From positions 496,001 to 560,000 of the forward strand of contig NZ_JAGSYC010000024.1 in NCBI RefSeq assembly GCF_025685545.1: 64,000 bases of DNA. The letters are read 5' to 3'. The notes under the pieces were generated by a model. It did no database searches, was not told the DNA's origin, and saw only the letters and a list, made by a program, of their open reading frames with translations. Within the stretch, counting starts at the first letter, position 1; every line of letters begins with the position of its first letter. Source of the DNA: Granulicella paludicola (GTDB lineage Bacteria > Acidobacteriota > Terriglobia > Terriglobales > Acidobacteriaceae). A program made the translations under genes and the position numbers. Positions 45,347 through 57,493 of this stretch are shown one piece after another.

Positions 45347-45754
45347 CTAACTTATGTCGTCCAAACGCTCTACCATCACATCCGTCGACTTGATCAGTGC
45401 AGCCACTGCGTCGCCTTTCTTCAACTGCAACTCCTTCGCAGCAGACGCCGTAATGATCGCCGTAATCTGCGACGACTCACAGGCCATCACCACCTCGGCC
45501 ATCAGCCCTTCGATGCGGATGCTGATCACTTTGCCCGCGATCTGGTTACGACCACTCACCTTGCGGAACCGTGCTCGCGAACTCGCCGCAGGTTTTGTGT
45601 TGTCCTTCGCTAGGAACGGCTTCAGCGAAGCCTCGGAGATGCGATGATGCCCGCCCGGCGTCTGCGCAGTCTTTAGCTTGCCGGAAAGAATCCACTGCTT
45701 GATCGATGGATAGCTAATGCCAAGCATCCGTGCGGCTTCTCGTGGGGTAAGCAT
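45347..45754 (-). CDS. helix-turn-helix plus TOBE (molybdate/tungstate-type) domain protein
   Basis: 135 residues. The N-terminal MerR/excisionase-type helix-turn-helix (LTPREAARMLGISYPSIKQWILSGKLKTAQTPGGHHRISEASLKPFL) is joined by a Lys/Arg-rich linker to a TOBE/Mop domain (SGRNQIAGKVISIRIEGLMAEVVMACESSQITAIITASAAKELQLKKGDAVAALIKSTDVMVERL). Such proteins bind molybdate or tungstate and regulate Mo uptake or cofactor genes; no Mod transporter is nearby. I start at ATG 45754, ten bases after AGGAGG; the ATG at 45763 sits too close to that site. Confidence 0.85.
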   Translation of the reverse strand: MLTPREAARMLGISYPSIKQWILSGKLKTAQTPGGHHRISEASLKPFLAKDNTKPAASSRARFRKVSGRNQIAGKVISIRIEGLMAEVVMACESSQITAIITASAAKELQLKKGDAVAALIKSTDVMVERLDDIS

Positions 45755-45825: not shown

Positions 45826-45873
45826 ATATCCACAACCTGTGGCCTTGTATCGGCCACCACCACAATCTATAGT
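45826..45873 (+). promoter_or_regulatory. nrdA promoter with DnaA-box-like site
   Basis: TTGTAT (45845-45850), 17 bases, TATAGT (45868-45873); the predicted start at about 45880 coincides with the riboswitch 5' end. ATATCCACA (45826-45834) just upstream matches eight of nine bases of a DnaA box and is part of CCACA-ACC-TGTGG. Confidence 0.6.
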
Positions 45874-45879
45874 CAGGTC

Positions 45880-46040
45880 ATTCCACGGTCTCTCCGTAAG
45901 GAGAGTGAAAAGGGAATCCGGTGAAATCCCGGAACTGTCCCGCAGCGGTAAGCAGGTACGAACGTCGACGATGACACTGGAGCGTTGCTCTGGGAAGTCC
46001 AGACTAATAGGTACGAGCCTGCAGAGTCCGAAGACCTGCC
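45880..46040 (+). ncRNA. cobalamin (AdoCbl) riboswitch upstream of nrdA
   Basis: Shows the conserved core in order: GGGAATCCGGTGAAATCCCGG, ACTGTCCCGCAGCGGTAAGC, a variable arm, and the B12-box element GAGTCCGAAGACCTGCC ending at 46040. It should sense adenosylcobalamin and repress nrdAB when B12 is available. The 120-base leader that follows contains GCGCCTCC/GGAGAGGCG inverted sequence and the AAGGAG ribosome site of nrdA, which could form the expression platform. Confidence 0.95.
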
Positions 46041-46160
46041 ATGGAAATATTCGCACGCGCCTCCGAGGAGAGGCGAGGTGGCAACGTCTCGTCCCCTCGC
46101 GCTCAGCGACGACCTGCCGTTGTTTCTTCGCAAAACCCCAGGGGCCAAGGAGATCCATCC

Positions 46161-48611
46161 ATGGCCGACTCGATCCAAACTCAGACCACTCTTGCCGACA
46201 TCGCGCCCGGTTTCCCTATGCGCGAAGAGACCCCCGTTATGCACGTCCGCAAGCGCAATGGAGCGCTTGAGCCCGTCGACGTCAACAAGATCGTCCGAGC
46301 TGTGCAGCGCTCAGCACACGGGCTCTCGCACGTCGATGCCATCCGCGTCGCTTCGAAGACCATCGGTGGCCTCTACGACGGCGCCACCACGCGCGAACTC
46401 GATACCATCTCCATCGACACCGCCGCCTCGCTCATTGCAGAGGAGCCGCAATACTCCAAGCTCGCGGCCCGCTTGTTGCTGGCCACCATCATCAAGGAAG
46501 TTTCCGCACTCAACCTGCACAGCTTCTCGCAATCCATCGCCTACGGTCACGCCGAAGGCGTCGTCGGTAAGGCTACGGCCGAGTTCGTCGCCACGCACGC
46601 GCGCAAGCTCAACCACGCCATCGACGACGAGTTCTCCGACCGCTTCGAATACTTCGGCCTGCGCACCGTCTACGACCGCTACCTGCTGCGCGACCCCATC
46701 TCCCGCGCCGTCATCGAAACTCCGCAGCACTTCTTCCTGCGAGTCGCCTGCGGACTCGCCGTCGCTCCGCATGAGGCCATCAACTTCTACCGTCTCATCG
46801 CCTCGCTCGACTACATGCCCTCCTCGCCAACACTCTTCAACGCCGGCACCAAGCACCCGCAGATGTCCTCGTGCTATCTGCACGACAGTCCCGGCGACTC
46901 GCTCGACAGCATCTACGACACCTACAAGAACGTCGCGCTGCTTTCGAAGTTCTCTGGCGGCATCGGCCTAGCCTTTCATCGCGTCCGCAGCGAAGGCTCG
47001 CTCATCCGCGCAACGAACGGGCTGAGCAACGGCATCATCCCGTGGCTGCGCACGCTCGATAGCTCCGTTGCAGCCGTGAACCAGGGTGGCAAGCGCAAAG
47101 GTGCGTGCTGCGTTTATCTCGAGCCTTGGCATGCGGATATCGAAGCCTTTCTCGAGCTGCGCGAAAACACCGGCGACGGAGCGCGCCGAACCTACAACCT
47201 CAACCTCGCCAACTGGATTCCCGACCTCTTCATGCAGCGCGTCGAAGCGGACGGCCTGTGGTCGCTCTTCGATCCCAAGGACGTGCCGCAGCTACCCGAC
47301 TTATACGGCCCGGAGTTTACCGCTGCCTACGAAGAGGCCGAGGCCGCGAAGAAGTATCACCGCCAGATCAAGGCGCGCGAGCTCTACCTGCGCATGATGC
47401 GCTCGCTCGCCGAGACCGGCAACGGCTGGATGACCTTCAAAGACGCCACCAACCTCAAGTGCAACCAGACCGGCGCTCCCGGCAACGTGGTGCATCTCTC
47501 CAACCTCTGCACTGAAATCACCGAGGTCACCAGCAAGGACCAGACCGCCGTCTGCAACCTCGGCTCCATCAACCTCGCGCGCCACATCACCACCGACGCA
47601 AACGGCACCGCAGCCTTCGACTTCGAGAAGCTGGCCGCCACCGTGCGCACCGCGATCCCGATGCTCGACCGCGTGATCGACATCAACTTCTACCCCATCA
47701 ACCAGGCAGCCACCAGCAACGCCGCATGGCGACCCGTAGGCCTTGGCCTTATGGGTTTGCAGGATGTTTTCTTCCAGCTCCACTTTCCCTTCGACAGCGT
47801 CGAAGCCCATGCTCTTTCCACCAAGATTCAGGAAGAGATCTACTACTACGCACTCGTTGCCTCCTGCGAACTAGCCGAGGCCAACGGACCGCATGCCACC
47901 TTCGCGGACACGCGCCTCGCCAAGGGGCACTTCCAGTTCGATCTCTGGAACATCACGCCCTCCGACACCACCCGCTGGGACATCCTGCGTGAGCGCATCC
48001 TCAAGTCGGGTGTCCGCAACTCGCTCGTCATCGCCATCGCACCGACGGCCACCATCGCCAGCATCGTTGGCTGCTATGAGTGCATCGAGCCGCAGATCTC
48101 CAACCTCTTCAAACGCGAAACACTCTCCGGCGAGTTTCTGCAGGTCAACCGCTATCTCATTGAAGAGCTGCAGACCCGCGGCCTCTGGCATGAAGAGATG
48201 CGCATGCGCCTCAAGATGTCCGAAGGCTCCGTGCAGAACATCGACGGCCTGCCAGACGATCTCAAACTCCTCTACCGCACCGTATGGGAGATCCCGATGC
48301 GGAGCCTCATCGACATGGCCGCCGCTCGCAACGCCTACATCGACCAGTCGCAGTCGCTGAACCTCTTCGCCGAGTCGCCCAACATCGGCAAGCTCTCCAG
48401 CATGTATATGTACGCGTGGAAGCAGGGCCTCAAGACCACCTACTACCTGCGCTCTCGCCCGGCCACCAAGATCGCGAAGACCACGGTCGCCAACGCCAGC
48501 ACCCGCGTCGGCGCGGCGGCCTCCAACGCCCTCACCACGCCGAAGCCCGACGACACCGCAGCTCTGGCCTGCAGCCTCGAAAATCCCGAATCCTGCGAAG
48601 CCTGCCAGTAG
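46161..48611 (+). CDS. nrdA: ribonucleoside-diphosphate reductase class I, alpha subunit
   Basis: 816-residue catalytic subunit. The N-terminal ATP-cone (MHVRKRNGALEPVDVNKIVRAVQRSAHGL) gives dATP allostery. Active-site elements are SSCYLHDSPGDSLDSIYDTYKNVALLSKFSGGIGLAFHRVRSEGS, NQGGKRKGACCVYLEPWH, NLCTEIT and PTATIASIVGCYECIEP. The C-terminus ends ESCEACQ, the swinging CxxC pair that re-reduces the active site. ATG at 46161 has AAGGAG upstream; an in-frame ATG at 46041 abuts the riboswitch and is not a good start. Works with NrdB, controlled by the B12 riboswitch. Confidence 0.95.
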   Translation: MADSIQTQTTLADIAPGFPMREETPVMHVRKRNGALEPVDVNKIVRAVQRSAHGLSHVDAIRVASKTIGGLYDGATTRELDTISIDTAASLIAEEPQYSKLAARLLLATIIKEVSALNLHSFSQSIAYGHAEGVVGKATAEFVATHARKLNHAIDDEFSDRFEYFGLRTVYDRYLLRDPISRAVIETPQHFFLRVACGLAVAPHEAINFYRLIASLDYMPSSPTLFNAGTKHPQMSSCYLHDSPGDSLDSIYDTYKNVALLSKFSGGIGLAFHRVRSEGSLIRATNGLSNGIIPWLRTLDSSVAAVNQGGKRKGACCVYLEPWHADIEAFLELRENTGDGARRTYNLNLANWIPDLFMQRVEADGLWSLFDPKDVPQLPDLYGPEFTAAYEEAEAAKKYHRQIKARELYLRMMRSLAETGNGWMTFKDATNLKCNQTGAPGNVVHLSNLCTEITEVTSKDQTAVCNLGSINLARHITTDANGTAAFDFEKLAATVRTAIPMLDRVIDINFYPINQAATSNAAWRPVGLGLMGLQDVFFQLHFPFDSVEAHALSTKIQEEIYYYALVASCELAEANGPHATFADTRLAKGHFQFDLWNITPSDTTRWDILRERILKSGVRNSLVIAIAPTATIASIVGCYECIEPQISNLFKRETLSGEFLQVNRYLIEELQTRGLWHEEMRMRLKMSEGSVQNIDGLPDDLKLLYRTVWEIPMRSLIDMAAARNAYIDQSQSLNLFAESPNIGKLSSMYMYAWKQGLKTTYYLRSRPATKIAKTTVANASTRVGAAASNALTTPKPDDTAALACSLENPESCEACQ

Positions 48612-48840: not shown

Positions 48841-49881
48841 ATGTCCACCACTGAAACCCAGTCCTCCGTCGCCGCCCCCGAGCACATCCTCGACCCCGGC
48901 CTCTGCCTCACGCTCCGTCCCATGAAGTTCCCCGTCTTCTACGACATGTTCCGCGACGGCATTAAGAACACCTGGACCGTTGAAGAGATCGACTTCCAGA
49001 CCGACCTCACCGACCTCAAGGGCAAGCTCTCATCGGCCGAAATTCACGTCGTTCAGCGCCTCGTCGCCTTCTTCGCCACTGGCGACAGCATCGTCTCCAA
49101 CAACCTCGTGCTGAATCTCTACAAGCACATCAACTCCCCTGAGGCACGCCTCTATCTCTCGCGCCAGTTGTTTGAAGAAGCAGTGCATGTGCAGTTCTAT
49201 CTGACGTTGCTCGACAACTACGTGCCCGACCCCGAAGAGCGCAACGCCGCCTTCGCCGCAGTCGAAAACATCCCCTCCATCAGCAAGAAGGCTGACTTCT
49301 GCATGAAGTGGATGGACTCCATCCAGCAGCTGGAGCAACTGGAGACCAAAGAGCATCGCCGCCAGTTTCTGCTCAACCTCATCTGCTTCGCCGCCTGCAT
49401 CGAAGGCCTCTTCTTCTTCGCCGCCTTCGCCTATGTCTATTTCTTCCGCTCGAAGGGCCTGTTGCATGGCCTCGCTGCGGGCACGAACTGGGTCTTCCGC
49501 GATGAGTCCTGCCACCTCGAGTTCGCCTTCGAGGTCGTCAACGTCGTTCGCGCGCAGGAGCCCGATCTCTGGGACGAGCAGCTTGAGAAGGACATTGTCA
49601 CCATGCTGCACGAGGCCGTCGACGCCGAAGCGCAGTTCTCTGAAGACCTTCTCGCCGGTGGAGTCGCCGGCCTCAGCATCCGCGACATGCGCGCCTACCT
49701 CGGCTACGTTGCTGACTCCCGCCTGCAGCGTCTCGGCATCGCTCCCGCCTTCAACACCAAAAACCCTTTCGCCTTCATGGACCTTCAGGACGTTCAGGAA
49801 CTCACCAACTTCTTTGAACGCCGCGTCTCCGCTTACCAGAGCGCGGTACAGGGCGAGGTCGAGTTCACCGAAGACTTCTAA
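48841..49881 (+). CDS. nrdB: ribonucleoside-diphosphate reductase class Ia, beta subunit
   Basis: 346-residue radical-generating subunit. Di-iron ligands are visible: Asp in FATGDSIV, Glu-x-x-His in FEEAVHVQFY, Glu in ACIEGLFFFAAFAY, and Glu-x-x-His in DESCHLEFAFEV. A Tyr lies four residues after the first His (EAVHVQFY), the position of the E. coli radical Tyr122, so this is a tyrosyl-radical enzyme, not the Phe-bearing class Ic. AAAGGA precedes the ATG. It is separated from nrdA by 229 bases of repeats. Its stop overlaps that of the convergent CPBP gene by three bases. Confidence 0.95.
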   Translation: MSTTETQSSVAAPEHILDPGLCLTLRPMKFPVFYDMFRDGIKNTWTVEEIDFQTDLTDLKGKLSSAEIHVVQRLVAFFATGDSIVSNNLVLNLYKHINSPEARLYLSRQLFEEAVHVQFYLTLLDNYVPDPEERNAAFAAVENIPSISKKADFCMKWMDSIQQLEQLETKEHRRQFLLNLICFAACIEGLFFFAAFAYVYFFRSKGLLHGLAAGTNWVFRDESCHLEFAFEVVNVVRAQEPDLWDEQLEKDIVTMLHEAVDAEAQFSEDLLAGGVAGLSIRDMRAYLGYVADSRLQRLGIAPAFNTKNPFAFMDLQDVQELTNFFERRVSAYQSAVQGEVEFTEDF

Positions 49882-57166: not shown

Positions 57167-57189
57167 TGTTTACAGGCAATATAAAGTAG

Positions 57190-57366
57190 TGATGTGCAGG
57201 TCAAAGCCTCTCAAGGCTTTGTTAAACGGGAAGCCGGTGTAACTCCGGCGCTGTCCCGCAGCGGTGATGGGAACGAAAGATTGCGCGGCGCAAGCCAACG
57301 CACTGTCTCACAGAGACGGGAAGCGGCAATCCGGTAGGTCGCCCAGAGTCCGAAGACCGGCCTGCC
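57190..57366 (+). ncRNA. cobalamin riboswitch upstream of metE
   Basis: Conserved elements in order: GGGAAGCCGGTGTAACTCCGGC, GCTGTCCCGCAGCGGTGATGGG, a long variable arm, GGGAAGCGGCAATCCGG, and the B12 box GAGTCCGAAGACCGGCCTGCC. TATAAA at 57180 may be the -10. It should switch off metE when cobalamin is present, leaving B12-dependent MetH to make methionine. Confidence 0.95.
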
Positions 57367-57493
57367 GCCACCGCCATGGAAGCGCCCTTTGCGCCGACCG
57401 TGGGTGCGCTTGAAGTCGCCGCTCTCGTGGATTGGAACGGTCACTACTGCATGTCTCCGTGCGCCTGCACGCGTCGCATGCCTGCGCATGGGT

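Follow-up and report, generated by a model that had tools for sequence, protein, structure and literature searches.

Which signals decide when a bacterium uses its class I ribonucleotide reductase (RNR), if it also possesses a B12-dependent one? The question is raised by the leader of the nrdAB operon in Granulicella paludicola, which was analysed within a stretch of 64,000 nucleotides (contig NZ_JAGSYC010000024.1; hereafter the window, to which all unprefixed coordinates refer). The host is an acidobacterium of the Terriglobus/Edaphobacter group and owns the B12-dependent enzyme NrdJ. The features of the locus are collected in Table 1.

Table 1. Features of the nrdAB locus, with the evidence on which each is placed
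Feature	Position	Strand	Evidence
DnaA-like nonamer ATATCCACA; its CCACA is part of NrdR box 1	45826..45834	+	1 mismatch to TTATCCACA
NrdR box 1, CCACAACCTGTGGCCT	45830..45845	+	rank 1 with the nrdJ matrix, together with box 2; equivalent place in relatives
-35 element TTGTAT (weak)	45845..45850	+	sequence; TTGAC-type hexamers equally spaced in relatives
NrdR box 2, CCACAATCTATAGTCA, over the -10	45860..45875	+	30 bp after box 1 (14-bp spacer)
-10 element TATAGT	45868..45873	+	sequence; kept in most relatives
Cobalamin riboswitch aptamer (RF00174)	45869..46057	+	cmscan 114.9 bits, positions 1-189 of 189
ATTCGC, which may act as L13 and pair with L5 (GTGAA) of the aptamer	46049..46054	+	5 pairs possible; inferred
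Hairpin GCCTC-CGAGGA-GAGGC behind the aptamer, with which the expression platform begins	46059..46074	+	RNR leaders of relatives carry an element like CCTCCGAGGGGAGG
nrdA, class I RNR R1	46161..48611	+	PF02867, PF00317, PF03477
nrdB, class I RNR R2	48841..49881	+	PF00268; Tyr at the radical position

A cobalamin riboswitch in front of a class I reductase

The B12 riboswitch that a first-pass annotation of this DNA had recognized before nrdAB is real, as the RF00174 aptamer is complete and its score in a cmscan of the window lies far above the gathering score of 31.5, with a gap of 103 nt between the end of the aptamer and the start of nrdA. The reading of the downstream genes as a class Ia RNR likewise stands, since the domains of R1 and R2 are found and the residues make class Ia a reasonable assignment. 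NrdA is composed of an N-terminal ATP-cone, an all-alpha domain and a barrel, and NrdB aligned to 2ani retains TGDSI, EEAVHVQFY and RDESCH, that is, the radical Tyr and the carboxylate/His ligands, which we take to be the positions that matter. The nearest solved R2 to NrdB is that of Chlamydia (class Ic type), and wild-type Chlamydia R2 carries Phe where NrdB has Tyr. By PF02867, two R1-type genes are present in the genome, nrdA and a class II enzyme on another contig. The first-pass annotation had called for a genome search for a B12-dependent nrdJ, taking its absence as refutation, and nrdJ was found (NF005122, 1432 bits against a cut-off of 859; PF08471); nrdR and nrdJ reside on different contigs. 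Putative control by B12 of the B12-independent class I reductase, as had been proposed, is hence well supported at the level of sequence by the riboswitch together with nrdJ, and by their pairing in relatives described below. We infer that the ligand of the aptamer is adenosylcobalamin and that B12 turns the operon off.

The expression platform and how the riboswitch may act

Five pairs are possible between GTGAA of aptamer loop L5 and TTCGC (46050-46054) of the candidate L13 element; the longest stem computed for this leader lies elsewhere, and a YTCRC-type L13 partner occupies the equivalent place in many relatives. The hairpin that follows has a core, CCTCCGAGGGGAGG, which is near-invariant in RNR leaders (24 of 25 rows usable, the segment taken for G034 having fallen on another hairpin) and is also encountered before metE in two relatives (L132, L140). 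No stem with a T-run was found on the + strand between 45700 and 46300, and energy folding did not set the post-aptamer region apart from shuffles (z -1.14 and -0.60). The 5' arm of the hairpin can pair with bases just ahead of the ribosome site over 5 bp in the window and over up to 7-8 bp in a few relatives; this pairing, which would mask the ribosome site, is inconsistent among relatives, being off position in some. Inspection of the GGTG region by eye revealed no conserved frame for a leader peptide.

Because no intrinsic terminator was found on the + strand (no U-run after the hairpin), our guess is that the riboswitch would control nrdAB at translation. Action by Rho-dependent or intrinsic termination instead of at translation is a tentative alternative with an appreciable chance of being correct, given that the long leader, with about 100 nt past the aptamer, leaves room for termination and that most nrdAB transcription in P. 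acnes appears to end before the first gene, according to the accessible part of one report (PMC3848588); the lack of a + strand stem with a T-run counts against the intrinsic variant only.

Riboswitch and nrdJ occur together within the family

The sample comprised all 31 of 150 family genomes with NrdA at no less than 45% identity, 24 of them with NrdA of the window type (two partial) and seven with a second, longer type; R1 matches at 38% identity or below (for example in G050, G104, G114 and G125) fall outside this survey. A B12 riboswitch is present at nrdA in 26/26 genomes with nrdJ, one of which (G121) is counted on a fragmentary NrdJ match, and in 0/5 genomes without it. The five lacking it at nrdA (G031, G095, G043, G101, G140) each carry a B12 riboswitch elsewhere, and a search for NrdJ in them returned only apparent NrdA cross-matches, with best E values from 2.2e-20 to 3.2e-26. 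A nominal exact test places this association at 1 in 169,911, the 31 genomes being related and not independent cases. The same contrast recurs within genus g1, where the window genome and G116 are set against G140, and in g32, where G128 and G148 are set against G031 and G095. Outside the 150 genomes, Terriglobus roseus has nrdA without a riboswitch and no NrdJ over the cut-off, and Edaphobacter aggregans has both the nrdA riboswitch and NrdJ. T. roseus displays two equal-scoring class I R1 matches (L006 genome, 2456931 and 2917454), and its nrdA seems duplicated.

The class of aptamer just upstream of nrdA is RF00174 in 24 of the 26 genomes, and in the remaining two, which belong to another genus, it is replaced by AdoCbl-II, RF01689 (L092:4082-4158 in G148 and L093:1265-1341 in G128). 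The AdoCbl-II class precedes nrdA also in Streptomyces orinoci (L084), and in G141 the nrdA riboswitch has a further, divergent B12 riboswitch as its neighbour at a distance of a few hundred bases (L087:4626-4824). A pattern of presence and absence within one family, and even inside single genera, constitutes a clean natural experiment, and together with the swap of aptamer class it supports control according to the choice of isozyme.

In a wider sample of 30 named genomes (30 of 80 loci), T. roseus and E. aggregans included, the nrdA riboswitch was observed in 13/21 genomes with an NF005122-type NrdJ; among the 8/21 without it are Acidimicrobiales and Bdellovibrio-type genomes and one Sulfopaludibacter. 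The riboswitch was also observed in 5/9 genomes without this type of NrdJ, and these five carry further R1-like matches, candidates for class II enzymes of another kind. By these counts, the riboswitch follows nrdJ closely in the family, and beyond it only loosely.

A predicted tandem NrdR operator over the promoter

The promoter TTGTAT-17-TATAGT, with a spacer of 17 nt, contains only 8/12 consensus bases, and for this reason a strict promoter scan at its own threshold reported none in the leader. A well-spaced promoter near the 5' end of the riboswitch had nevertheless been proposed in the first pass, and despite its weak -35 element it is a credible prediction, because leaders of relatives carry a TTGAC-type hexamer, 17 nt and TATAGT at the equivalent position. 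From the placement of the -35 and -10 elements, transcription would be expected to start near 45880, at the base of stem P1. The intergenic region is shared with a divergent gene (45347-45754, - strand), whose product has an HTH and a molybdate-type TOBE domain and is ModE-like.

The same promoter is overlaid by a tandem NrdR operator, which was absent from the earlier reading. The palindrome CCACAACCTGTGG has as its left edge the last five bases of ATATCCACA, and CCACAATCTATAGTCA follows thirty bases further on; both resemble the NrdR box consensus. The tandem score averaged 21.3 of 32 over 27 leaders (that of the window and the nrdA leaders of 26 relatives with the riboswitch) as compared to 15.4 (sd 1.36) in mononucleotide shuffles, which keep base content and do not keep dinucleotide content, and a p value of 0.035 or less was obtained for each of the 27. 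In box 1, positions C1, C3, T10 and G12 are invariant in the anchored columns of all 27 leaders, and C3 and G12, nine apart, are present in both boxes of the window operator. Conserved GC pairs nine apart are what NrdR reads in the Streptomyces structure, in the accessible text of its description (PMC9110341). With a matrix derived only from the nrdJ leaders of 28 relatives, the Granulicella genome's own nrdJ being left out, the pair 45830/45860 ranks first among 255,818 window positions, and the leader site ranks first at the nrdA loci of 26/26 relatives with the riboswitch; L159, whose nrdJ locus is cut short, was excluded from both the anchored columns and this matrix.

The TTGAC hexamer is situated between the boxes in nrdJ promoters and adjoins box 1 in nrdA promoters, and the distance from box to box is 30-31 bp in both. 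Since the hexamers shift relative to the boxes with this distance kept, conservation of the boxes is not simply an echo of the promoter, although part of the conservation of box 2 may be promoter, in the bases common with the -10. The spacer of 14 bp (d=30) in the window operator is within the range of 14-17 bp over which binding is reported for four tested NrdR proteins, as far as the accessible part of that study goes (PMC12051234). In leaders that are free of the riboswitch, the NrdR site is the top match in 6/6 cases (T. roseus, G031, G095, G043, G101, G140), and because they retain it, the NrdR and riboswitch controls are separable. The genome encodes NrdR itself (181.6 bits against a cut-off of 124.65), with a Zn-ribbon and an ATP-cone, and the protein carries D15, R17, R26-29 and R37, the residues named as DNA-reading for S. 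coelicolor NrdR in the accessible text of PMC9110341. The nrdAB promoter is probably occupied by NrdR, as judged from these predicted sites.

The DnaA-like nonamer

Upstream of the -35 element, the first-pass annotation had noted a DnaA-box-like sequence, ATATCCACA, from which a link of nrdAB to replication was drawn, its combination with B12 control being singled out as the notable feature. The letters are confirmed and the signal is not, since six nonamers within one mismatch of TTATCCACA occur in the window against 5.83 expected. Five of the nine bases (CCACA) fall inside the left half of NrdR box 1, so the site is absorbed by the top-ranked NrdR operator, and on these grounds the link to DnaA is not supported and DnaA was rejected as the main reading of the window promoter. 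A promising but poorly supported lead is replaced by a better one, NrdR.

At the level of the family, 22/27 leaders contain a nonamer that departs from TTWTNCACA at one base at most, against 4.8 in shuffles, and 14/27 contain one outside the NrdR boxes against 3.35 (largest value 8 in 100 shuffles), this null being computed on the part upstream of box 1 only. Most matches are confined to two positions relative to box 1: 13 bases ahead of it (the -13 nonamer, 10 leaders, best form ATTTGCACA) and 4 bases ahead of it, where the nonamer is fused to the box (the -4 nonamer, 10 leaders); one leader is counted in both groups. The -4 class, to which the window leader belongs, finds a partial explanation in the NrdR box. 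The -13 element, spanning 13 to 5 bases before box 1 with C at -8 in 26/27 nrdA leaders, is also weakly visible at nrdJ and is degenerate in the window leader; as it is not accounted for by NrdR, a third factor may act through it on the RNR leaders of the family. A broader proposal would have these leaders integrate three inputs: dATP/ATP through NrdR, B12 through a riboswitch that may belong to either class and is retained only in the presence of NrdJ, and a further protein, which might be DnaA. The last would recognize a conserved nonamer, ATTTGCACA at -13 from box 1 or TATCCACA joined to that box. We regard this proposal as unlikely; if it were true, NrdR and the further protein would compete for one site wherever the nonamer is merged with the NrdR box, which is the case in the window leader.

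It is improbable that DnaA binds ATATCCACA and ties nrdAB to replication alongside the riboswitch: binding of the E. coli nrdA promoter by DnaA and H-NS, as given in the accessible part of PMC12176259, and the family-wide excess and fixed placing of the nonamers speak for it, but sites of the ATATCCACA kind are about as frequent in the window as chance predicts, the sole nonamer match of the window leader overlaps NrdR box 1, the -13 element is lost there (AATCTCGAC), its conserved form ATTTGCACA is two bases away from TTATNCACA, and a search just upstream of the genome's dnaA found no cluster of DnaA boxes to define the local box. Less plausible still is that the operon answers to B12 alone and that the NrdR-like boxes are mere promoter sequence, box 2 including the -10 and box 1 touching the -35, since box 1 is conserved at its four invariant positions outside both hexamers, the matrix from nrdJ promoters, in which the hexamers are placed differently with respect to the boxes, still gives this site top rank both in the window and in 26/26 relatives, and riboswitch-free leaders retain it.

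B12 economy and the proposed dual control of nrdAB

The window contains a second cobalamin riboswitch (57181-57379, 103.1 bits), not noted in the first pass, directly before metE, which encodes the B12-independent methionine synthase. The genome encodes MetH besides MetE; metH extends over two frames and has a stop in its first part (L178, L179; G000:C22:134055-137701). MetE, another B12-free enzyme behind a riboswitch with its B12-dependent counterpart MetH present, offers a parallel to NrdAB. The third riboswitch of the genome (L003:1501-1766, 53.9 bits) stands before the gene of a TonB-dependent receptor that has a plug domain, a candidate B12 importer. No member of the CobB/CbiA family, which serves de novo B12 synthesis, turned up in the genome, and the organism therefore probably imports B12. 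The nrdAB switch would then probably read imported B12, which is relevant to soil communities trading the vitamin.

Taken together, it is highly probable that the nrdAB leader is doubly controlled, by NrdR acting on transcription in response to dATP/ATP and by a B12 riboswitch that turns nrdAB off when NrdJ works. The support, all at the level of sequence, consists of the aptamer, the boxes, the shape of the promoter, the genes for NrdR and NrdJ, and the co-occurrence of riboswitch and nrdJ. In the first layer, an NrdR tetramer would sit on both boxes (45830-45845 and 45860-45875), overlapping the -35 and -10, and would block the promoter when dATP is plentiful. In the second layer, the transcript from about 45880 would open with the cobalamin aptamer, and bound adenosylcobalamin would fold it so that nrdAB expression is lowered. 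With B12 available, NrdJ would supply the dNTPs, and with B12 absent, NrdAB would take over.

Comparison with known systems

A B12 riboswitch stands at the class I operon of Streptomyces coelicolor as it does in the window, and we know of none at nrdAB of E. coli. Among the papers matched by searches on cobalamin riboswitches, RNR or NrdR in Acidobacteria, and on RNR in Terriglobus, none treats the nrdAB case in its title or the opening of its abstract. The comparisons that follow hold for the accessible portions of the cited reports. The S. coelicolor nrdAB and nrdRJ operons also combine a class I with a class II reductase and have tandem NrdR boxes separated by roughly three turns of the helix; the phylum is another one and the boxes are spaced by 31 bp as compared to 30 bp in the window (PMC9110341). 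In P. acnes (Propionibacterium/Cutibacterium), a cobalamin riboswitch in the nrdAB 5' UTR, an NrdR box over the promoter and nrdJ are likewise found, but nrdAB has a single NrdR box and nrdR is cotranscribed with nrdJ, whereas Granulicella has two boxes and the two genes on separate contigs (PMC3848588). In E. coli, NrdR boxes and a DnaA-like nonamer are located near the nrdA promoter (PMC12176259), whereas the nonamer of the window leader runs into an NrdR box and, across the window, sites of its kind have chance frequency. In delta-proteobacteria, a B12-free isozyme is predicted to be turned off with B12 when a B12-dependent isozyme exists, the enzyme concerned being class III NrdDG there and class I NrdAB in the window (PMC545781, which credits an earlier paper for the control of isozymes by B12 elements). 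The logic is thus already known from Actinobacteria and delta-proteobacteria, and the window is a further case of a known design.
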